Virus record (IMG/VR): IMGVR_UViG_3300044591_000753
Location: 1-30,880 of that record
DNA: 30,880 nucleotides
Direction: 5' to 3' (one strand)
From: a virus
Under the pieces are notes generated by a model. It was not told the origin of the DNA. It saw only the letters and a program-made list of their open reading frames with translations, and did no database searches. Below, in pieces: positions 313-23,611 of the stretch. The translations under genes and the position numbers were made by a program. The first letter of the stretch is position 1. Every line of letters begins with the position of its first letter.

Positions 313-627
313 ATGAAGTTGCGCCACCCCGCTTCCAATCTTTTTATGAAACCACTACTACTAATACCCCTATTACTGAGTAATACCCTTGCCCAAGATG
401 GATCGTTCAATGGGACGGTCTATGATTTGGATTCGGGGCGGATACAGGTCATCAGCGGATCTGTGGATATCAAACCCAAAGAGGACACCTATCTTTCTAC
501 CCTTCGCCGTATTAATGCGGAGTTGGCGGAATCAAACGCCCGTATGAGTGCGGAGATTACAGCCAACAATCAACTTTATGAACTGCGCGAGCAGACAAGG
601 CTCTTGCGTAAAATTGCCGACCAATGA
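313..627 (+). CDS. Small exported protein with C-terminal coiled coil
   Basis: This protein of about 104 residues is not recognised. The N-terminus has basic residues and then a hydrophobic stretch (LLLIPLLLSNTLA) ending at a plausible signal peptidase site before QDGSF, so export is likely. The C-terminal half, from about residue 60, is a charged heptad-like helix rich in Glu, Arg and Leu, which predicts a coiled coil. I chose the ATG at 313 because GGGGGG lies just upstream. An in-frame ATG at 346 would give a tidier signal peptide, and the frame is open back to 232. The stop overlaps the next start as ATGA, implying translational coupling. A spanin-like or periplasmic structural role is possible but unproven. 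Confidence 0.6.
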   Translation: MKLRHPASNLFMKPLLLIPLLLSNTLAQDGSFNGTVYDLDSGRIQVISGSVDIKPKEDTYLSTLRRINAELAESNARMSAEITANNQLYELREQTRLLRKIADQ

Positions 628-3407: not shown

Positions 3408-4712
3408 ATGCAAGAAGTCATCTTTGAACCATCCGCCGAAACCGCCATCCTTTCCTGCCTCTGTCATGCTCCGTCAGAGGATCAGCGTGAGATCCTTTTA
3501 TCTATAAAGGAAGATCACTTTTACCTTCAGGAGAACAAGATCATCTTTCGGGCAGTCATGCGCTGTATCGCCAAAGGGATGCAGGCAGACATCATTAATG
3601 TTAAGGGAGAGATCGAAGCTGCCAACGAATACGATATCGTCGGGGGTGAACAAAAGATTACAGAAGTTGCAACTTCGTGTGTAGCCCACAACAACTGGAA
3701 ACGTTACTATCCCAAGTTGGAAGAAGCCCGCTACAGAAGGTCGCTGGAATACTTGGCCAACGACATGGTTCACAAGGCCAGAGACCGCGAATTAAAGATC
3801 GAAGAACTCAAGAACTGGTCGGAGACCACTGTCATGCGGGCTGACTATGAGATGGATGATGGCAGCAAGCTTTCTATTAACAATGCCTTGGATCGTGCTG
3901 CCCAGAACATCGAATCCACGATCGCTGGAAAACCCTGTATAGGCATTCGCACTGGCATCACTCCATTGGATGACCTTCTCATGTTTGGCTTGCGCGGCGG
4001 AGACATGGTTGTCTTGGCCGCAAGACCAGCAGTTGGCAAGACGGCCAGCGCCCTTCAAATTGCCGAAAACGTGGCACTCAACCAAAAGAAGCGGGTCTTG
4101 ATCTTCTCTTTGGAGATGACAAGCGTTGCCCTCATGGAGCGCATGATCCGCTCGCGGGCGCGTGTGGGCGCTGCTGACATCTTGTCTGGTCGGGTAACCC
4201 CGCATCAGAAGCAATCTCTCGGAAGGGCCGTGCAGGAAATCCAAGCATCCGAAATCATCTGTGACGATAGCTCGGCCAAATCTATCGGCTATCTCAAGGC
4301 GGTAGCTCGCCGCGCCCATCAGCGCACACCGCTAGATCTCATCATCATTGACTACCTTCAGTTGGTCAAGGGCGATAGCAAGCGTGGAAAAGACAATCGC
4401 GTGTGCGAAGTGGAAGAGATTAGCGGCGGCATCAAGGATCTGGCCAAGACCCTCAAGGTTCCTGTTCTGGTGCTGGCTCAACTCAATCGCGACCCAGACA
4501 AGCGCGGAGGACGCCCCAGCCTTTCAGACCTCAAGGGATCTGGAGCCATCGAGCAAGATAGCGACATTGTCATCATGCTTCACAGTGAAGACGCCCAAGA
4601 CCATGAGCAGAATCCCACCATGGAGTTTATTGTCGGCAAGCATCGTGACGGGCCCACAGGCGTAGCCAACATGAGCTTCAATAAGGGGATTACCCGATTT
4701 GAGGTGGCGTAG
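3408..4712 (+). CDS. dnaB: DnaB-family replicative helicase
   Basis: This 434-residue protein has the usual DnaB plan: an N-terminal helical domain (about 1-100), a linker, and a RecA-like ATPase domain from about 175. Walker A is ARPAVGKTA (205-213), followed by SLEM (234-237), Walker B LIIIDYLQL (311-319, Asp315), and AQLNR (357-361). The stretch RGGRPSLSDLKGSGAIEQDSD is a family hallmark. It would be the hexameric 5'-3' helicase unwinding the phage replication fork. No primase domain is present and no separate primase is seen in the window. The start is the ATG at 3408, eight bases after the upstream stop, without a Shine-Dalgarno sequence. Its end overlaps the convergent next gene by 23 bases. 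Confidence 0.95.
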   Translation: MQEVIFEPSAETAILSCLCHAPSEDQREILLSIKEDHFYLQENKIIFRAVMRCIAKGMQADIINVKGEIEAANEYDIVGGEQKITEVATSCVAHNNWKRYYPKLEEARYRRSLEYLANDMVHKARDRELKIEELKNWSETTVMRADYEMDDGSKLSINNALDRAAQNIESTIAGKPCIGIRTGITPLDDLLMFGLRGGDMVVLAARPAVGKTASALQIAENVALNQKKRVLIFSLEMTSVALMERMIRSRARVGAADILSGRVTPHQKQSLGRAVQEIQASEIICDDSSAKSIGYLKAVARRAHQRTPLDLIIIDYLQLVKGDSKRGKDNRVCEVEEISGGIKDLAKTLKVPVLVLAQLNRDPDKRGGRPSLSDLKGSGAIEQDSDIVIMLHSEDAQDHEQNPTMEFIVGKHRDGPTGVANMSFNKGITRFEVA

Positions 4713-5292
4713 CCTTCCAGCAGAAGGCTGGGAAGTTCAACCCTTCCCCACCTTGTGTGTCAACTGGAAGATGGACAGAGACTGCATTGTAACAGCCACA
4801 AATTCCACAGGCTTTAAGCTGCTGGTCATAAGATGTTGTTTTTGCTCCCGCAATATGGGGTAGCATTCCAGCAATTCCCTTGCACCCCCAACAGCCAGAA
4901 GTGGAAATTTGATGTGGGCAGGCTGCACAAATCTTGGCCCTGCGCTCCGCCTCCTCTTGATCGACTAGCTGGAATTTGTTGTCTTTGGCAAAGTGATACA
5001 TTGCCTTGACCCAGCGGACAATTTGAGAGAACCCCAAAGTTTGTTTTTCTTGGGTGCATGGCACACAGTTTTCGTTTCCAGCCATTCTGTCGCAAAGATT
5101 GTGTTCTATTTGTGACACAAGATCCACTGGCGGTGTAATGCCCTTGGAGATTAATAGCTTCTCGCAATTCGCAACCATGTCATGCCAATCGCCTCCGCGA
5201 ACGGGCTCGTCCACAATCGGACAATTTACCCACCATCCCTGTGGGGGAACACTTGATTTTCTCTCGTAGCAAAATTTTGGTACCTCATTCAT
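4690..5292 (-). CDS. Cysteine-rich zinc-ribbon phage protein
   Basis: This 200-residue protein is Cys-rich in its second half: CAAC (122-125), CWGC (134-137) and CGICGC (162-167), with more cysteines at 76, 79 and 191. The pairs indicate one or two structural zinc sites. The pattern CAACPH...GCWGCKG...CGICGC recurs in uncharacterised phage proteins. Start is taken as the ATG at 5292, eight bases inside the upstream gene; an in-frame TTG at 5298 also exists. It forms a two-gene leftward unit with the probable small terminase gene and converges on the helicase gene. A regulatory or DNA-binding role is possible but not shown. Confidence 0.7.
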   Translation of the reverse strand: MNEVPKFCYERKSSVPPQGWWVNCPIVDEPVRGGDWHDMVANCEKLLISKGITPPVDLVSQIEHNLCDRMAGNENCVPCTQEKQTLGFSQIVRWVKAMYHFAKDNKFQLVDQEEAERRAKICAACPHQISTSGCWGCKGIAGMLPHIAGAKTTSYDQQLKACGICGCYNAVSVHLPVDTQGGEGLNFPAFCWKATPPQIG

Positions 5293-6055
5293 TGACAACT
5301 AACTCCGCTTCATAGGTGTTGTTTTCTGGAATCTTCATGGATTCCAACTTGGTAGCAATGTTAATTTGAATTGCATTCTGTTGGTTGTTGCCCTCAGAAA
5401 AGTTGATGGCGGCAGCTTCTGCCAACTGCTTGATGTTCCGCATCATTCCAAGAGCTTCCATACCATCTAGGTCTTGCGCGGCATCAGCGGCCTTGACCAA
5501 TACCTTACCAGTCAGAAACTTGATCGACTTCTTCATGGTTTCCAGAGACGCCGTGATTTCTGACATCACAGAAGGAACTCCATCATCTTCCCAAGGAGCG
5601 GGAGATTGTTCGTTTACCAAACGCTCCCTACACTGAATCCAGCGTTGGGTATCCCGCCATAGGCAAACAGTAGACTCGCTTACCTTTAGTTCCTCGGCAA
5701 TATCCCGCAGGGTGCGCCCAGAACAGTACATGGAGAACCCCTTGATACATTCCATTCTACGCTTCTTGTCCATCTCCTCCATTCTGGAAGGAGGTGTAAC
5801 CAAGGCTACGGGACGTTCTTTATCCCAAGGGTAGAGGTTTTCCACTTCGGGATTTTCCTGCCATACCTTGACATACTCGTCCCACTTCTCGCTATAAATT
5901 AGTTTTTCCAGAGTTGGTTTATGCTTTGTTTCCAAAGCTTTCATTACCTCTGGCAATCCCCTCCCAGCGGCGTAGAGCCTAAATGCATTCTGTTTTTTGA
6001 TGCGGTTTTCTGGCGTATCCCAATCCCGCTCTCCGCTCTTGCGCTTTTTCTCCAT
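5285..6055 (-). CDS. terS: Probable terminase small subunit with duplicated HTH
   Basis: This 256-residue protein has two similar helix-turn-helix-like segments. The first is at about 24-62 (AFRLYAAGRGLPEVMKALE...SEKWDEYV). The second and more canonical is at 106-142 (GFSMYCSGRTLRDIAEELKV, then SESTVCLWRDTQRW). A helical C-terminal half follows (about 160-225), suited to oligomerisation. Small terminase subunits recognise the packaging site on phage DNA through such HTH domains and form rings. Its position directly beside the large subunit supports the call. The orientation is unusual: it is divergent from the large subunit, with 28 bp between start codons. A phage transcription regulator is the main alternative. 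Confidence 0.65.
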   Translation of the reverse strand: MEKKRKSGERDWDTPENRIKKQNAFRLYAAGRGLPEVMKALETKHKPTLEKLIYSEKWDEYVKVWQENPEVENLYPWDKERPVALVTPPSRMEEMDKKRRMECIKGFSMYCSGRTLRDIAEELKVSESTVCLWRDTQRWIQCRERLVNEQSPAPWEDDGVPSVMSEITASLETMKKSIKFLTGKVLVKAADAAQDLDGMEALGMMRNIKQLAEAAAINFSEGNNQQNAIQINIATKLESMKIPENNTYEAELVVNE

Positions 6056-7925: not shown

Positions 7926-7941
7926 ATTCTATTTGCCATTT

Positions 7942-8304
7942 ATGGCTCAACTACCGATTGCGGAAGCGGACATCTGCGTGTTTCAAGGTGCCACTTTCAA
8001 TCAGACTTTATTCTATGAGACGGGCGAACCATCGGCTCCCGTGGATCTTGCGGGATTTACGGCCAAGATGCATATTCGGTCAAAACCCGAATCCAAGGCA
8101 CTAATTCTTGAATTGTCTACAACTAATGGTAGAATTGTTTTGAATGAAGCTACTGGATCTATTAGGCTTACTATATCGGCGTCTGACACGGCATCGCTCT
8201 CGGTTTGTGATAAAGCCGTATATGACCTTGAGCTTTACAACGGGGCCGTCACAACCCGAATCCTGCAAGGCAATGTTATCATTTCACCAGAGGTTACCCG
8301 CTAA
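7942..8304 (+). CDS. Small beta-rich tail/adhesion accessory protein
   Basis: This 120-residue protein has the pattern QGATFNQTLFY, PVDLAGFTAKMHIR, LILELSTTNGRIVL and YDLELYNG, ending in GNVIISPEVTR. It resembles an N-terminal baseplate-type beta domain often encoded beside phage tail fibres. A paralogue with the same pattern is encoded at 10555-10923. The ATG at 7942 is preferred to an in-frame TTG three codons upstream. The stop abuts the next ATG directly. It probably helps attach or organise the fibres encoded next, but this comes from position and paralogy rather than a named function. Confidence 0.6.
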   Translation: MAQLPIAEADICVFQGATFNQTLFYETGEPSAPVDLAGFTAKMHIRSKPESKALILELSTTNGRIVLNEATGSIRLTISASDTASLSVCDKAVYDLELYNGAVTTRILQGNVIISPEVTR

Positions 8305-8628
8305 ATGAGCAAGATCTGTATCCCTATTCCTTCTTCCAGTGTTATCGGCGTTTCCTCAACCCCGATTCAAACTCCCAGCGTCAATATCCTTCGTGTCGAG
8401 CCATCAATCACTGGACTAGAAGGTGGTGGATCAGCAAATCTTGATGGATTGGCCACAGTTAGTGGAACCTATGCAGTTGGGATTGTTATCTTTTTGGTGA
8501 TTGCTGGGCTTCCTGCCATTTATCAACTAACAAATGGCACCGATGCCGAAAATTTGCCATTCGTAGTCAGGCCCAATGATTATGATAGCCAAACAGGAAC
8601 TAAAAGGGTTTGGAAGCGACTAATGTAA
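8305..8628 (+). CDS. Unknown protein in the tail-fibre block
   Basis: This 107-residue protein starts on the base after the previous stop. The first half is Ser/Pro/Thr-rich with low complexity. A short hydrophobic stretch (YAVGIVIFLVIAGLPAIYQL) is followed by NGTDAENLPFVVRPNDY and a final KRVWKRL. The hydrophobic run could be a membrane segment, but it includes strand-like residues and may be beta structure in a fibre connector. It lies between a baseplate-like protein and a fibre. No family is recognised. Confidence 0.6.
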   Translation: MSKICIPIPSSSVIGVSSTPIQTPSVNILRVEPSITGLEGGGSANLDGLATVSGTYAVGIVIFLVIAGLPAIYQLTNGTDAENLPFVVRPNDYDSQTGTKRVWKRLM

Positions 8629-8630
8629 CA

Positions 8631-10541
8631 ATGAAATATATTCTCTCACTTATTATCAGTGGAGCCTTGGTGGTTTCGGGCTTCGGTCAAACGCGCAATG
8701 TTCTGGTTGGAACCAACAACGCTGTAGTCCAGCCCACCAACTTTTGGAGTGCGGACGCTTCCAACGCTCGCACGGGACTCGGTTTGGGAACCGCAGCCAC
8801 AAACCCAGCATCCGCATTCCAATCTTCTTCTGCCACGCTTTCCAACTTGGCTGCGAGTAATGGCGGAAATTTAACGAATCTTCAGTCCGCAAATTTGGTT
8901 GGCATTATTCCAGCGTCCAATATTCCGTCAACTACATTAACCAATATTTCTGGAACTCTTTCGATTGCTTCTGGTGGAACAGGAGCCACCAACGCCGCAA
9001 CAGCAAGAACTAACCTTGGATTGGGCTGGTCTGCGCTTACGAATACAGATGCCACAAACTTCCGCAATGCCATCGGGCTTGGAGTTTTAGATAGTGTTGA
9101 ATTTACAGATATAACTGCTGTTAATATTTTGGGAAGTGGAAATACCAATATAGTAATTGACTTGGATGATTCTTGGTTGTTGGCAGAAGGTTCAATTGTT
9201 TTTGAATGGCAAACAGAAGCAATAACTTTTTATACTCCAATTGCGTTTGGGGGAACAAATTCAAGTCTTCAGGCATCAAAAAGTCGCACAAATCTTGGCC
9301 TACCTTGGAGTGGGCTAACCAATACCAACGCTGTTGGATTTCGCAATGCTTTGGAAATAGGGACAACCAATACTCTTACAATTGCTGGAATTACTGCTCA
9401 AAATATTACGGTTACGGCGGGAGGTGGTATTACATTGCAGTCTGTTATTACAAATGCCGCATCGTTTAGGACTAATATTAGCCTTCCTTGGTCTGGTCTC
9501 ACAAATGCAAATTCTTCAACATTCCAAGCGGCATTATTTGGATCTAATACCAATCCAGTTTTGGTTAATACCAACGGAGAAGTGGTTAGTCCAACCAACT
9601 TCTGGGCAGTGGCTCCCATTTCCACAACTGTCCAATATCAGACAAATGTTACTGGAACATCAACAAATGATGCAACAAACAGTCGCAATCTATTTCTGTT
9701 CAGTCTTTCTCCTTCGGTGTCGGGAATTACCAATACGGTGACATTGCCCACGAACCCCGCAACCACATTTGAAGGAGATAGAGCAACTATTATTCATCTA
9801 GCCCAAACAACCAATGCTGTAACAGCTATTAGGCAATTGGGCGCAGCAACCAATATTATTACGCTCAACCAGCTTGATGAAACGGTTCTATTGATGTATC
9901 GCAGCGGAGCATGGATACTGGCCGACAACATCTCTTATGTTGAGCCTATCTTCTTTTCAGGAACCAATGCAGCAGCTAATGCGGCGGCAAGTAGGGCAAA
10001 TTTGGGATTGGGCGCGACCAATCAAGTTGTGTTCTCAAATGTTGTTGCACAACAAATACAAACAGCCGCCGTTGCGCCAATCTATACACTCGATTTATTT
10101 AACGCAAGCATCCTTTTTAACACAAACATCCTTCTTAGTTGGTCTGACACAGAATTTACATTCGCAATTCCCGTTGAATTTGGTAACACCACTAACGCCG
10201 CAACTACTCGCACCAACCTCGGCCTTGGCCAAACCAATAGCGTCACATTTTCTTCGCTAACTCTTTCAAGTGATCTAACTTTTGGCAGTGGAGATAACAT
10301 TGTTCTGTCCACAACAAATGGAACAAAGATTGGAACAGCAACAAACCAGCTTCTTGGCTTTTATAATCAAACTCCTATTGTGCAACCATCCACAACGGGA
10401 GTTACCACCAACGGATTTACTCAGGGAAGCGGAAACAATGTCCACCCAAATAGCACATTTACTGGTGGCATAGGAACAAATGCATACACGATTTCGGATA
10501 TTGTAGCGCATTTGAAATCTCTTGGACTGATCGCTCCTTAA
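8631..10541 (+). CDS. Tail-fibre-like repeat protein with an export signal
   Basis: This 636-residue protein opens with a typical signal peptide: MKYILSLIISGALVVSGFGQ, with probable cleavage near residue 19-20. This is unexpected for a virion fibre. The remainder has fibre repeats built on RTNLGL...W..LTNT...FRNAL, at about 122-150, 215-244 and 276-304, with shorter copies near 451-461 and 522-533. A beta segment at about 152-205 recurs at 463-515. VVQPTNFW (32-39) recurs as VVSPTNFW (318-325). The C-terminus (TNAYTISDIVAHLKSLGLIA) is a common fibre ending. The ATG at 8631 lies two bases after the upstream stop. It could be a host-recognition fibre or a surface-displayed phage protein. Confidence 0.7.
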   Translation: MKYILSLIISGALVVSGFGQTRNVLVGTNNAVVQPTNFWSADASNARTGLGLGTAATNPASAFQSSSATLSNLAASNGGNLTNLQSANLVGIIPASNIPSTTLTNISGTLSIASGGTGATNAATARTNLGLGWSALTNTDATNFRNAIGLGVLDSVEFTDITAVNILGSGNTNIVIDLDDSWLLAEGSIVFEWQTEAITFYTPIAFGGTNSSLQASKSRTNLGLPWSGLTNTNAVGFRNALEIGTTNTLTIAGITAQNITVTAGGGITLQSVITNAASFRTNISLPWSGLTNANSSTFQAALFGSNTNPVLVNTNGEVVSPTNFWAVAPISTTVQYQTNVTGTSTNDATNSRNLFLFSLSPSVSGITNTVTLPTNPATTFEGDRATIIHLAQTTNAVTAIRQLGAATNIITLNQLDETVLLMYRSGAWILADNISYVEPIFFSGTNAAANAAASRANLGLGATNQVVFSNVVAQQIQTAAVAPIYTLDLFNASILFNTNILLSWSDTEFTFAIPVEFGNTTNAATTRTNLGLGQTNSVTFSSLTLSSDLTFGSGDNIVLSTTNGTKIGTATNQLLGFYNQTPIVQPSTTGVTTNGFTQGSGNNVHPNSTFTGGIGTNAYTISDIVAHLKSLGLIAP

Positions 10542-10554
10542 GCACATTTTATAA

Positions 10555-10923
10555 ATGACTAACTACTGGAGACTTGAAAGAGATATTGAAATCGTCCAAG
10601 GAAAAACATGGACGGCGAAGTTTCGTTATCTGACCAAGTCTTGTAAGGGGAAGTCTAATGTCCCAGTCAATCTTTCGGGCTACGGGGCCAACATGGTCAT
10701 CCGTGAGTGCGCCAAGGATAGTGCCACTTTGCTCACATTGACCTCTGGAAGCGGGATTACGCTCGGCGGGAGCGCGGGCACCATCGAAATCGAAATCACC
10801 GCTACACAGGCCGCAAACCTCACCGCAGGCGACAACGTCTACGAAATCGAACTCTACCTCGGCTATACCTATATCGCATTTGCTACGGGTAAGGCCAAGG
10901 TCTATCAGGAGATTGCCCGATGA
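10555..10923 (+). CDS. Paralogue of the small beta-rich adhesion protein
   Basis: This 122-residue protein shares its plan with the protein at 7942-8304: [26 protein letters not shown], a central [20 protein letters not shown], and [10 protein letters not shown]. The match is in spacing and hydrophobic pattern rather than strict identity. It directly precedes the largest fibre gene and overlaps it by four bases (ATGA). The start ATG at 10555 follows TTTTATAA, with no Shine-Dalgarno sequence. The repeated arrangement of small protein then fibre suggests a duplicated attachment module. Confidence 0.65.
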
Positions 10924-13900
10924 GCCAAGAAGTCATTGAGGTAACAGAAAGAGAAGTAGAAGTTATTGAGATTGTGGAGCGCGGCCCCGTTGGGCCAACT
11001 GGCCCGCAACCAGATATTAACTATACTGTAGTTTCTTCTAATACCACATTGCAGGCAGCAGATCTTATTGCTGCCGATACTTCTGGAGGGTCTTTTACTC
11101 TTACTCTTCCACTAAATCCTAGTAACGGTGATGCGGTAGACATCTTCGATTTCTCTGACACTTTCGACACCAACAATCTGACTATCGCCAGAAACGGAAC
11201 CAAGATTGAGGGAATTGAAGAGAATTTAGTCTGTAACATTGAAGGAGCCTACTTCACGATGATTTATACGGGAGCAACCCGTGGATGGCAGATTCTTCCG
11301 CGCTACGGCACTTCTGGCGGTGCTGGAGAGTCTACACTTACCACAACTGGTGACATGCTCTATCGGGCTACAGGCGTCAATGCCCGACTCCCAATAGGAA
11401 CCGCAGGACAGGTTCTGAAAGTAAACAGTGGAGCCACTGCTCCCGAATGGGGAACCATCTCCACCGCACCTAGCGGCCCCGCAGGCGGAGACCTCACTGG
11501 AACCTATCCTAATCCAACTTTAACTACTACGGGGGTTGTTGCTGGTACCTACACCAAAGTCACCGTTGATGCCAAGGGGCGGGCTACTGTCGGAGCTTCC
11601 GCCACAAAGTCTGATGTCGGATTAAGCAATGTGGACAATACGTCTGATGCCAACAAGCCCGTATCCACAGCTACCCAGACGGCACTAAATCTCAAAGCCA
11701 ATCTAGAATCTCCCGCTCTCACGGGAACCCCGACAGCACCTACTGCTGCTGCTGGAACTGATACTACTCAGATTGCTACTACGGCATTTACGCTGGCGAA
11801 TCGCGGAGACCGATATCTAACAACCAGCACATCTTCCCACTCTCTTACTACTGGTTCCAAGACATTTACTGTACAGTCGGGACTTAGTTATACTCCAACA
11901 CAGGACGTTACCATTGTATACGATGCAGCCCGTCATATGCATGCTTTTGTTACCAGCTATTCTGGAACATCATTGGTTGTTAATGTCGATACCGTAGAAG
12001 GTAGCGGAGGGCCATTCACAGCTTGGACGATCAATGTTGGCGGGCTTTTGACGGCGCAAGGGGCGCTTCTAGAGGTTAACAATCTCAGTGATGTCAGCAA
12101 CCCCGCAACCGCACTAACTAATATCGGAGGTGTGCCAACATCCCGAAGTATTAGTGCTGGCACTGGATTGACTGGCGGCGGCGACCTCACGGCCAACAGG
12201 ACTTTGGCCGTATCTTACGGAACCACAGCGGGAACCGCTTGCGAGGGGAATGATGCGCGGCTTTCGGATGACCGCGACCCGAATCTTCATGCCGCAAGTC
12301 ACCTCCCCGATGGCGCGGATGAGCTTTTTGATCAGTCGTTGAATACGGGGGATAACGTTGAGTTCGCTAATGTAATATCCACTAGCGGCGTCGAAACTTT
12401 CGATCTCATTGTTAATGCTAGTTTTGAGTTTAAGGACTCAGCAAACGAATTTTCTGCAACAATATCCGCTCAAGACAAACTTAGCGCAAACAGGCAAATT
12501 GATATACCCAACGCCAGCGGAACACTCGCCCTCCAAGGAGCCATCACCACCTCTGGCCTAACCCAAGCCACCGCCCGCATCCTCGGACGCACGACCGCGA
12601 GCACGGGTGCCGTCGAGGAGATCACAATCGGATCGGGATTGAGCCTGTCGGCGGGGGAGTTGTCTTCCACCGTCAGCGCGGGCATCCCTGCAACCCTCCT
12701 TGACGCCAAAGGCGACCTCATCGTGGCCTCGGCAGCGGATACGGCGGCACGGCTGGCAGTCGGAGGCACCAACGGCCATGTGCTGACAGTCGATTCGGCT
12801 GAGACTTTGGGAGTGAAGTGGGCGGCGGCGGCTGGAGGCATCGGCGGCGGCACAGGCTCCACCGACAACGCCATCCTCCGCGCTGACGGCACAGGGGGCA
12901 GCACGTTGCAGTCGAGCGGACTCGTCATCGAAGACGCAGTGACCGCTTTCGCCACAGTCACAGGCGACGCGGGCACCGACATTATCACCGCCACTGGCTC
13001 GGCTTTCGCCAACGGCCAAAAGGTGCGCTTCACGGCCCTCACTGGAGGCGCGGGGCTTAACACCACTACCAACTACTTCGTCATCAACGTCAGTGGAGCG
13101 ACATTCCAGTTGTCTACGACAGAAGGCGGATCGGCCTCGCTTTTCACAACCAACATCACGGCTGGCACTTTGCTCACGGGACACTCCGCCCAAGCTCATG
13201 TTCAAGTAAGAAACGCAGCAAGCGATACTAATTCGGCCTTGGTGCTAACACCGAAAGGAACTGGGGCATTTATTGTTGGGCCTACTCCAGATGGAACCGC
13301 AACTGGCGGAAATGCAAGAGGCGCAAATGCTATTGATATTTCTGCAAACAGATCAACAGCAGATCAGGTGGCGAGCGGGAGTAGTTCTTTGGTAATCGGC
13401 CAAGGAAGTCGAGCAAGCGCGTCATTTGCAATCGCTTTTGGACAAAACATAAATTCATCAGGCCAAGAAGGCGTTGCGGTGGGATATAATTCAAACTCTT
13501 CTGCATTTCAGTCTTGTGCGTTTGGGCCAAATTCAAATGCTAACACATCTACTGGAGCGTGTGCTGTTGGCCGAAACGCATCATGCAGTGGAGATACCGC
13601 ATCAGCTTTAGGAAGTTCCTCAACTGCCAGCGCCACTAATGCAGCAGCAGTAGGGGCAGCAACAGCAAGTCTCCGCGCACAGTTAGCAAGCCGCCCATTC
13701 AATGCAATTTATTGGGGCGGCGAAACCACCACCGCAACCCCGCTCATTCTCAACTTAGATGCAACGGCCACCAACCGCTTCACCATCGCCGCCTCCACCG
13801 CGCTGGCCGTGGACATCCTGCTCGTCGCCCGCCGCTCGGACACGCAGGACAAATGGCTCGTCGCCCGCCGCTTCCTCGGCATCCGCCGCGATGGCTCAAA

Positions 13901-14078
13901 CAACACTTCGCTCATCGGCAGCGTCCAGACACTCGGCGTCGATCAAAGTGACGGCTCGCCATCGTGGACGTTTGCGCTGACTGCCGACAATACCAACGAA
14001 GCCCTGCAACTGGAAGTCACGGGCGCGGCCTCCGAGACGATCCAATGGCGTGCCACCGCATTTTACCGAGTCGCTTAA
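10920..14078 (+). CDS. Giant mosaic tail fibre with YadA-like repeats
   Basis: This 1052-residue protein is a modular fibre. The N-terminus is acidic and then collagen-like (GPVGPTGP, about 22-29). Typical fibre segments follow, such as [13 protein letters not shown] and [15 protein letters not shown], then [11 protein letters not shown] near 620. YadA-head-type repeats ([20 protein letters not shown] and neighbours) span about 810-910. A C-terminal domain from about 920 contains [13 protein letters not shown]. That domain and the preceding repeats are shared with the fibre at 14658-15818. Base composition changes sharply along the gene, consistent with module exchange. It probably binds the host surface. 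Receptor and trimer state are not known. Confidence 0.8.
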
Positions 14079-15820: not shown

Positions 15821-17155
15821 ATGGCTATTGAGCCAGCTATTAACTGTCCTATTGATTGTGGGGTTGCCACAACTCCTACTTTTGCTAGGCAATTTTCCAA
15901 GCAAACCGTTGCAGACAGAACGGCAGACCTTGATTTTGTTATAGAATACACGCCATTATCATCTGGATCATCCCAATCTGATATGTTGGGGGATATTAAT
16001 CTTATCAGAGACACATATCCAACATCAGCAACTAATGTTAGGGCTATTGTTAATTTTCGACCAGAAAAGTTTGGCTTTGTTGAGTCTTATGCCAGTGAAA
16101 ACACATCAATTCTTTCAAATTCATCAGAAGAATCAAATCTCTTTGAATATGAATCTACTGGGACTACGTCATTAACGGTAGCTTTTGGTACTAATGAAAA
16201 AATAACAAAAGCCGTAACAACTTCCACGTTGTCAGAATCGGCCACAAAAGAAGTTTTCCAATCTTTTCTTAATGGTTCTTTGGGGCGTCACATCTATGAT
16301 CAGATAAGACAATACGCCGATGGATCAACTTCTCCTCCAAATCATTATCCGCTATATTCCACATTTGACTATACGAATAATATTTATGTTAGAAATACAG
16401 GAAGTTGGACTTATCCATTGGATTTTTCTGGTTTAACAGTCAATAAATCTGGTAGCGGAGGAGTTACAAATGTAACGGCAATAACACCATATCATGCGAT
16501 TGGTGCGGGGCATTATCCTCCAGAAGTTGGCGATATATTATATTTTTGCGATACAAACAATCAACTCGTTTCAAGGACAGTTGAAAGCAGAATTCTTTCT
16601 GGGGATTTCGATGGGGTGGTAGTTAAATTTTCAGAGCCACTTCCATCAACTGTAAAAAAATACAAAACACTACCATCAAATTTTGAAAATTATCTACCAA
16701 TCAATAGGAATATTTATCGAACTGATGGAACCAGTAGGTCATTAAGATCTTCTGGTATTCCGATAGTCGTTTGTAGCCATTACCGATGGGACTCTGAATG
16801 GCCCTTACAGAGGCCCAATAGATATGCTTATTTTTATGAAACTGGTGAAATCATAAATCCTTTATTTGGATTAGACGTAATTTATTATATTTCAGCAAAT
16901 TTCATAGCATATGCAAATAACTTGCCAAATTATAACGGAGATCCATCAAATATTCGTGGCGGGGACAGTGGAAGTCCTTGTTTTTTTATTATTAACAATG
17001 ATTTAGTCCTTGTTAGCCATCATGCCACAGGAAATAGTGGTCCGTTTCATCCTGATTGCCTTTCATTTATTCAAAGCATGATTAATACACTTGGCCCAAG
17101 TGGACAAACTTATGAAACTGTAGATCTTTCAGAATTTACCAACTTTTCTTCCTAG
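15821..17155 (+). CDS. Trypsin-like (PA-clan) serine protease in the tail block
   Basis: This 444-residue protein has the three blocks of a chymotrypsin-fold serine protease in the right order: His225 in ITPYHAIGAGH, Asp264 in DGVVVKFSEPLP (matching the classical DIALLKL pattern), and Ser383 in RGGDSGSPCF, followed by LVLVSHHATG. The first 200 residues are Ser/Thr-rich and could be a pro-region or virion-attachment domain. No signal peptide is visible. The gene starts two bases after the fibre stop and ends 38 bases before the portal gene. It is strikingly AT-rich (one 60-base line, 16861-16920, counts 22% GC). It may digest host surface protein or mature virion proteins. The triad is seen; the role is inferred. 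Confidence 0.7.
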   Translation: MAIEPAINCPIDCGVATTPTFARQFSKQTVADRTADLDFVIEYTPLSSGSSQSDMLGDINLIRDTYPTSATNVRAIVNFRPEKFGFVESYASENTSILSNSSEESNLFEYESTGTTSLTVAFGTNEKITKAVTTSTLSESATKEVFQSFLNGSLGRHIYDQIRQYADGSTSPPNHYPLYSTFDYTNNIYVRNTGSWTYPLDFSGLTVNKSGSGGVTNVTAITPYHAIGAGHYPPEVGDILYFCDTNNQLVSRTVESRILSGDFDGVVVKFSEPLPSTVKKYKTLPSNFENYLPINRNIYRTDGTSRSLRSSGIPIVVCSHYRWDSEWPLQRPNRYAYFYETGEIINPLFGLDVIYYISANFIAYANNLPNYNGDPSNIRGGDSGSPCFFIINNDLVLVSHHATGNSGPFHPDCLSFIQSMINTLGPSGQTYETVDLSEFTNFSS

Positions 17156-22702: not shown

Positions 22703-23611
22703 ATGTCCTATAAAGAGTGGAAACAGAAGTGGACAGCGGAATACAATGCCCGTCCCGATGTTAAAGAAAAGAAGCGCCTGTATGCCCAGCGCCCAGAAAA
22801 CAAGCTGAAAGAAAAGCTAAGAAAACAGAAGTATAATCAGCGTCCAGAAGTTAAGGTGCGGAATCTTGCGCGGCAAAACACGCCTGAAGCCAAAGAAAAG
22901 AAAAGGCTGTATTCCCAAAGGCCAGAAGTTAAAGAACGCCACAAACTTTCTATAGAAAAATACAAAGAGAAAAACAAAGACCTTGTCAAAGCTTGGGCAA
23001 AAGCATATAGCAAAAAGAAAAAAACTGATCCCGAAGCTATTAGAAAAAGAAAAGAATACGAAAAGAAAAGATATCAAAATCCAGAATATCAGCGTTCCAA
23101 AAAAGAATATGTTAAAAACAATATTTCAAGAATCAGAGAATACAGAAAACAATATGCCCTCAAGAAAAAAGATTCTTTGGCCCAAAAAAGAAAACAAAGA
23201 CGCTTAACAGACAGTCACTACAAGCTTAAATTGGCGTTAAGAAGCAGGCTATCAAACGCGGTAAGGCGACATCAAAAATGCAACTCAACTCTCAATCTTT
23301 TAGGGTGCGATATTGATTTTTTAAAGCGACACTTGGAATCTCAATTTAAAGAAGGAATGTCTTGGGATAATTGGTCTACACATGGATGGCACATTGATCA
23401 TATTGTCCCTTTTGGACAATTCGATTTGTCCGATCCAATACATCAAATAGCAGCGTGTAATTGGCGTAATCTCCAACCTTTGTGGGCCAAAGACAATCAT
23501 TCTAAACTTAACAAATTAACCTCAAAAGGCTCAAAACTTAAATCTAATCTTTTAAGTGTTGCAAAAGAAATATATTTCAAACAATGCGGCTTGACTATTA
23601 GATCTATTTAA
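22703..23611 (+). CDS. HNH endonuclease with repeated basic N-terminus
   Basis: This 302-residue protein ends in an HNH nuclease domain: HGWHIDHIVPFGQFDLSD, then ACNWRNLQPLWAKDNHSKLN. The two domains suit a homing-type DNA endonuclease. The N-terminal 120 residues are repeated, Lys/Arg-rich units (RPEVKE, KEKKRLYAQRPE, KEKKRLYSQRPE), probably a DNA-binding region. The gene is AT-rich compared with its neighbours and sits between the capsid gene and the small structural gene. This is a common insertion point for intron-less (free-standing) homing nucleases. It is probably a selfish element; the host gene does not look interrupted. A long non-coding gap precedes the ATG. Confidence 0.85.
   Translation: MSYKEWKQKWTAEYNARPDVKEKKRLYAQRPENKLKEKLRKQKYNQRPEVKVRNLARQNTPEAKEKKRLYSQRPEVKERHKLSIEKYKEKNKDLVKAWAKAYSKKKKTDPEAIRKRKEYEKKRYQNPEYQRSKKEYVKNNISRIREYRKQYALKKKDSLAQKRKQRRLTDSHYKLKLALRSRLSNAVRRHQKCNSTLNLLGCDIDFLKRHLESQFKEGMSWDNWSTHGWHIDHIVPFGQFDLSDPIHQIAACNWRNLQPLWAKDNHSKLNKLTSKGSKLKSNLLSVAKEIYFKQCGLTIRSI

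Follow-up and report, generated by a model that had tools for sequence, protein, structure and literature searches.

Conserved signal peptides on receptor-binding-type fibres of uncultured phages point to fibre export and a possible role at the envelope of the infected cell

The stretch of DNA analysed here (the window) is a virus record of 30,880 bases from IMG/VR that carries DnaB, terminase, holin and amidase genes. On its plus strand, which also encodes the neighbouring proteins named next, an ORF at positions 8631..10541 specifies a fibre-like protein of 636 aa with an N-terminal signal peptide, as judged from the ORF, its translation and its relatives. Immediately 5' of the fibre gene lies one encoding a protein of 107 aa that has a single hydrophobic segment (8305..8628), an arrangement found in 77 loci, and further upstream an LtfC-like protein is encoded (7933..8304) that matches phrog_1084 (E 1e-23) and phrog_3304, L-shaped tail fibre assembly (E 4e-8). 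A second phrog_1084 protein (10555..10923; E 2e-16) is encoded between this fibre gene and that of a conventional 1052-aa tail fibre (10920..14078). The conventional fibre gave PHROG tail-fibre matches, was negative in our signal test and matched cultured phages by a short segment only.

Positions 8631-8700 hold the codons for residues 1-23 of the ORF ending at 10541, and the N-terminus of the protein reads MKYILSLIISGALVVSGFGQTRNVLVGTNNAVVQPTNFW. Residues 1-19 (MKYILSLIISGALVVSGFG; 8631..8687) have Lys as their second residue, a hydrophobic core free of charges and small residues at -3/-1, with Gln at +1, and the cut is predicted between Gly19 and Gln20. The N-terminus thus has the sequence features of a type I (Sec/SPI) signal according to a home-made type I heuristic, which was used instead of SignalP. 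In the window this test was positive for the fibre and for one other gene among 32; the background was 20 of 528 non-fibre genes of the phage group and 33 of 641 overlapping spurious ORFs. A later translation start was ruled out, because the next Met is residue 422, and starts at the TTG/GTG codons 13, 14 and 52 would remove part of the core or of the mature motif. An in-frame TTG is present upstream at 8610, yet in many relatives a stop codon immediately precedes the ATG. On the sequence evidence, the signal peptide is neither a chance resemblance nor a mis-called start.

The search for relatives used peptide patterns lying outside the signal and found 79 viral loci. In this set, all relatives with a complete 5' end had a hydrophobic signal, a small residue and then Gln, and the heuristic test was positive in 51/51 true fibre genes. 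Four fibres that seemed to lack a signal turned out to be unrelated ORFs picked up by a loose pattern. When the mature motif V-x-V-x-TN-x...PTNFW was followed, 93 of the 94 distinct genes bearing it passed the test, and the last one has a signal by eye. We also chose loci by their terminase and not by the fibre (78 examined, 9 too short, 69 left). All 69 had a signal-peptide gene at the fibre position, although the loci are related, and neither this count nor the others given for signals and selection consists of independent trials. The picked ORF carried the motif in 68; the remaining locus, L292, has two tandem ORFs, each with its own signal, the first containing MKKLSTIAILLASSFFAGAQTRNVIVDTNSIVVSPTNFW and the second starting MKFNKLAAAIIWATSVSGLAQ and ending in the usual tip. 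Should these ORFs be the parts of a split fibre, each part would carry a signal. The 61 scored signals fell into 21 classes (<50% identical) ahead of one mature motif, and Gln20 was invariant in A1. The preliminary description had proposed a fibre-type protein with a secretion signal, to be abandoned if homologues lacked the hydrophobic start or were translated from a later Met. The heuristic test and the relatives show the signal to be real and conserved; no homologue without the hydrophobic start was found among the relatives examined, and no later Met lies near the N-terminus. Its suggestion that the signal was captured from a host gene is not supported as a recent event: the signal is old, occurs in all relatives and is common to divergent paralogues and other phage types.

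Selection was compared along 73 distinct 5' ends in the same register. The hydrophobic core gave a dN/dS of 0.63, against 0.18 for the cleavage region together with Gln and 0.05 for residues 21-42, which belong to the conserved mature start (residues 20-42, QTRNVLVGTNNAVVQPTNFWSAD; 8688..8756). A packed structural helix would be expected to conserve its sequence and a cleaved signal to drift, and drift was seen. A drifting core with a held cleavage site and mature start is the pattern that a cleaved export signal predicts, which would lend indirect support to export.

The protein contains fibre repeats of the NAATARTNLGLG type, and its PHROG tail-fibre matches are weak. It is encoded in the tail/structural gene region, which together with the repeats marks it as a fibre, and it combines a conserved N-terminal part with exchangeable C-terminal tips in the manner of receptor-binding proteins. 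Members of the group share 92-99% identity in the terminase; for the fibre, identity in the best segments is mostly 35-75%, and its length varies. The tip of the window protein (10449..10538) is one of at least five exchangeable cassettes from which the C-termini of the relatives are drawn, and 117 of 120 tip-sharing proteins have a signal peptide, one exception being a start-calling artefact. Within residues 303-446 (9537..9968) the TNG...PTNFW motif occurs once more, and a beta module comes after it. The model of this segment (pLDDT 79) matched the N-terminal region of CBA120 TSP4, T4 gp9 and baseplate chains with VIA Z scores of 8.0-10.9 at 11-16% identity, and the best Foldseek E value was 6e-4. 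As modelled, the segment has a T4 gp9/gp10-like, tailspike-like fold, which is evidence for a common fold but not for a function; the full-length monomer model was of low confidence and was not used for fold. CBA120 TSP4, gp9 and gp10, whose fold residues 303-446 share, are virion proteins assembled in the cytoplasm and are not known to have signal peptides. A Pfam search detected no enzyme domain in the window fibre, and no cultured-phage homologues of the fibre, terminase, portal or MCP were found.

The conserved mature start carries a motif common to fibres in Verrucomicrobiota genomes. When about 85,000 species were scanned with this motif, the sole genome match lay on a contig of a Verrucomicrobia MAG; this contig encodes tape-measure and tail-tip proteins and may be a mis-binned viral one. 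A genome scan with the whole fibre protein as query returned nothing. The two neighbouring fibres of the MAG contig start MKKILIVLLACFTCTHVYS/A and MKKLLSSLIFTAVVASASA/A (the slash marks the predicted cut), and one of them matches GDSL with a score under the Pfam cut-off. Among 388 Verrucomicrobiota genomes two more had the motif, and their tail modules look Mu-like by gene order. In the relative L143, the signal-peptide protein of a Mu-like module has a Tail Collar domain (E 2e-19) and a C-terminal part matching 1,266 phage records, which together identify it as a tail-fibre protein with a signal. The signal is present in the IMG/VR relative L191 too, and in 16/16 further viral loci found with the Verrucomicrobial motif. 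In one of these (L195), a tailspike without a signal, whose N-terminus matches phage tail-protein N-termini, is encoded just upstream. In another (L206), a lectin-domain protein (4499-5314; Laminin_G_3, E 3e-14) lies beside signal-peptide fibres and starts MRRRQFIKRTAAAGAGLWLPKAFAQ, which is twin-arginine-like (TIGR01409 15.4 bits versus a cut-off of 16.7). As a separate observation from a Verrucomicrobiota genome, the signal-peptide fibre in a Mu-like module has as its neighbour an FGE-sulfatase-domain protein with a signal-like start (L144, 2165-3673, minus strand; E 4e-37).

The +1 residue bears on the host. In the window fibre Gln directly follows the predicted signal peptidase I cut, as in the Q-rule, and 17 of the 20 signal-positive genes among the 528 non-fibre genes tested in the window's phage group have Gln at a permitted +1 position. 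Gln at +1 averages 71% in Bacteroidetes (Bochtler et al., PMC5837995); in Verrucomicrobiota stretches we found it in 12/133. The occurrence of +1 Gln in unrelated signal-peptide families hints at Bacteroidota as the host of the window phage, but the only relatives of the motif in genomes come from Verrucomicrobiota. A search of the 388 Verrucomicrobiota genomes for a host by terminase match, run without a positive control, gave nothing. The idea that Bacteroidota phages generally use such signals was rejected on the basis of four cultured phages, FCL-2, P2559S, phi38:1 (first 50 kb) and B40-8, in which no listed tail fibre has a signal and few genes score in the test, several of them lipoprotein-like. 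In phage signal peptides, the +1 residue may also be of use as an indicator of the host phylum.

From these sequence comparisons it is very probable that infected cells pass the fibres through the inner membrane rather than retaining them at the usual place of virion assembly, and the fibres most probably act outside the cytoplasm. We put at roughly even the chance that the window protein is a Sec-exported receptor-binding-type fibre acting on the envelope of the infected cell, beside conventional unexported fibres. The 19 N-terminal residues would, with high probability, direct the protein to the Sec translocon, where signal peptidase I would cut after Gly19 and expose Gln20. In a Bacteroidota-like host Gln20 would then probably, though with less assurance, be cyclised to pyroglutamate, as in most exported proteins there. 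The mature protein, consisting of the conserved start, T4 gp9/gp10-like shaft modules and the exchangeable tip, would fold in the periplasm. Finally, the fibre could, in what we regard as an evenly balanced proposal, bind or mask surface receptors on the infected cell's own envelope; superinfection would be reduced and fewer progeny lost on the cell or on debris, while separate unexported fibres would serve the virion. We favour an envelope role because conventional unexported fibres or tailspikes coexist with the exported ones (window 10920-14078; L195), because tips circulate among signal-peptide proteins, and because relatives or neighbours bear lectin, FGE-sulfatase or weak GDSL domains. 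Against it, the gene is in the virion structural region with fibre-assembly-like neighbours, and both the strong conservation of the mature start and the gp9/gp10-like module would be in keeping with a part of the virion. In addition, the window fibre has no Cys at all and hence no lipobox with Cys at +1 of the Llp type, no outer-membrane anchor was found in it, and no type IX C-terminal sorting domain was present among NCBIfam matches with E up to 1 or Pfam matches with E up to 0.1, a search that could miss a divergent domain. None of these features would thus account for a step from the periplasm to the surface.

The same observations could mean that the protein is an exported virion fibre, which would be held in the periplasm after cleavage until it is added to particles, during lysis or later. 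Part of the receptor-binding apparatus of the virion would then mature outside the cytoplasm. This is possible but less likely than an envelope role. It accords with the location in the tail module and the LtfC-like neighbours, with the gp9/gp10-like fold, with a conserved mature start (dN/dS as above) joined to exchangeable tips, which is the usual plan of a receptor-binding protein, and with L143, where the Tail Collar protein itself has the signal peptide. However, conventional unexported fibres are present alongside in several genomes, no tips are exchanged with them, and late extracellular fitting would need to work with diluted fibres. A broader form of this explanation is a class of tailed phages that includes several tail types, probably infects more than one host phylum and has Sec-exported, cleaved virion receptor-binding fibres that are fitted only outside the cytoplasm, at or after lysis; we consider it a shade less likely again. 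It is rather improbable that the protein is a secreted or surface-displayed adhesin or surface modifier with a community role (cell binding, surface sugars) in place of phage blocking: the GDSL-like, lectin and FGE-sulfatase domains of relatives or neighbours and the hypervariable tips would suit such a role, but the window protein has no enzyme domain and shows no sign of transport past the periplasm. Hydrophobic termini do occur on some virion proteins, but a structural or membrane-active helix that is signal-like only is very improbable here, given that drift affects the core but spares the cleavage region and Gln, that 21 unrelated signal classes precede one motif, and that other unrelated families in these phages follow the same signal grammar.

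The envelope role of the exported fibre can be set beside known phage systems. In the T5 Llp type, small exported receptor-blocking lipoproteins mask the receptor on the infected cell, which is the way of working proposed for the window fibre; Llp is a small lipoprotein, whereas the window fibre lacks both a lipobox and Cys. Lambda Lom, an outer-membrane protein of a phage, has an N-terminal signal peptide, and its gene lies between those for the tail spike and the tail fibre (PMC12309495). It resembles the window protein in having a signal peptide and a gene among tail-fibre genes, but Lom is a beta-barrel made in lysogens, and the window protein has fibre repeats and exchangeable tips. Phages of Porphyromonas gingivalis encode Q-rule proteins with signal peptides, of unknown functions (PMC10367356); these share the signal peptide and the Gln at +1, a likeness in signal pattern, and are not reported there as tail fibres. 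Phage tail-type proteins that also serve the bacterium in platelet binding are cited in PMC3055811. Their host is Gram-positive. These proteins reach the surface through lysis and are not known to use a signal peptide. We found no report of conserved signal-peptide tail fibres in the open-access literature, a search that excluded most subscription papers and all preprints. If export is true, either a late extra-cytoplasmic step of fibre assembly is missing from current morphogenesis models, or some tailed phages use receptor-binding fibres in a widespread programme of envelope modification; in both cases, the annotation of signal-peptide fibre genes in uncultured phages would change.

Several other genes were noted in passing. 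The window encodes a 93-aa signal-peptide protein unrelated to the fibre (346..627, plus strand; MKPLLLIPLLLSNTLA/QDG, from an internal ATG and with Gln at +1), and near it a 96-aa protein with a lipobox-like ITSGC start (1244-1534); the two are possibly an envelope pair such as spanins. An HNH-like gene directly 3' of the major capsid gene (22703-23611) is missing from the 79 relatives and is probably a mobile endonuclease. A 444-aa protein with a serine-protease-like GGDSGSP motif and no Pfam match (15821-17155) has relatives in only 7 loci and occupies the variable slot before the portal gene. In the slot upstream of the portal, other signal-peptide proteins were seen at L004 18708-19553, L022 9091-9921, L033 16811-17776, L061 18860-19423 and L074 12846-13667; several have the same motif or tips, and many genomes thus carry two exported fibre-like proteins.
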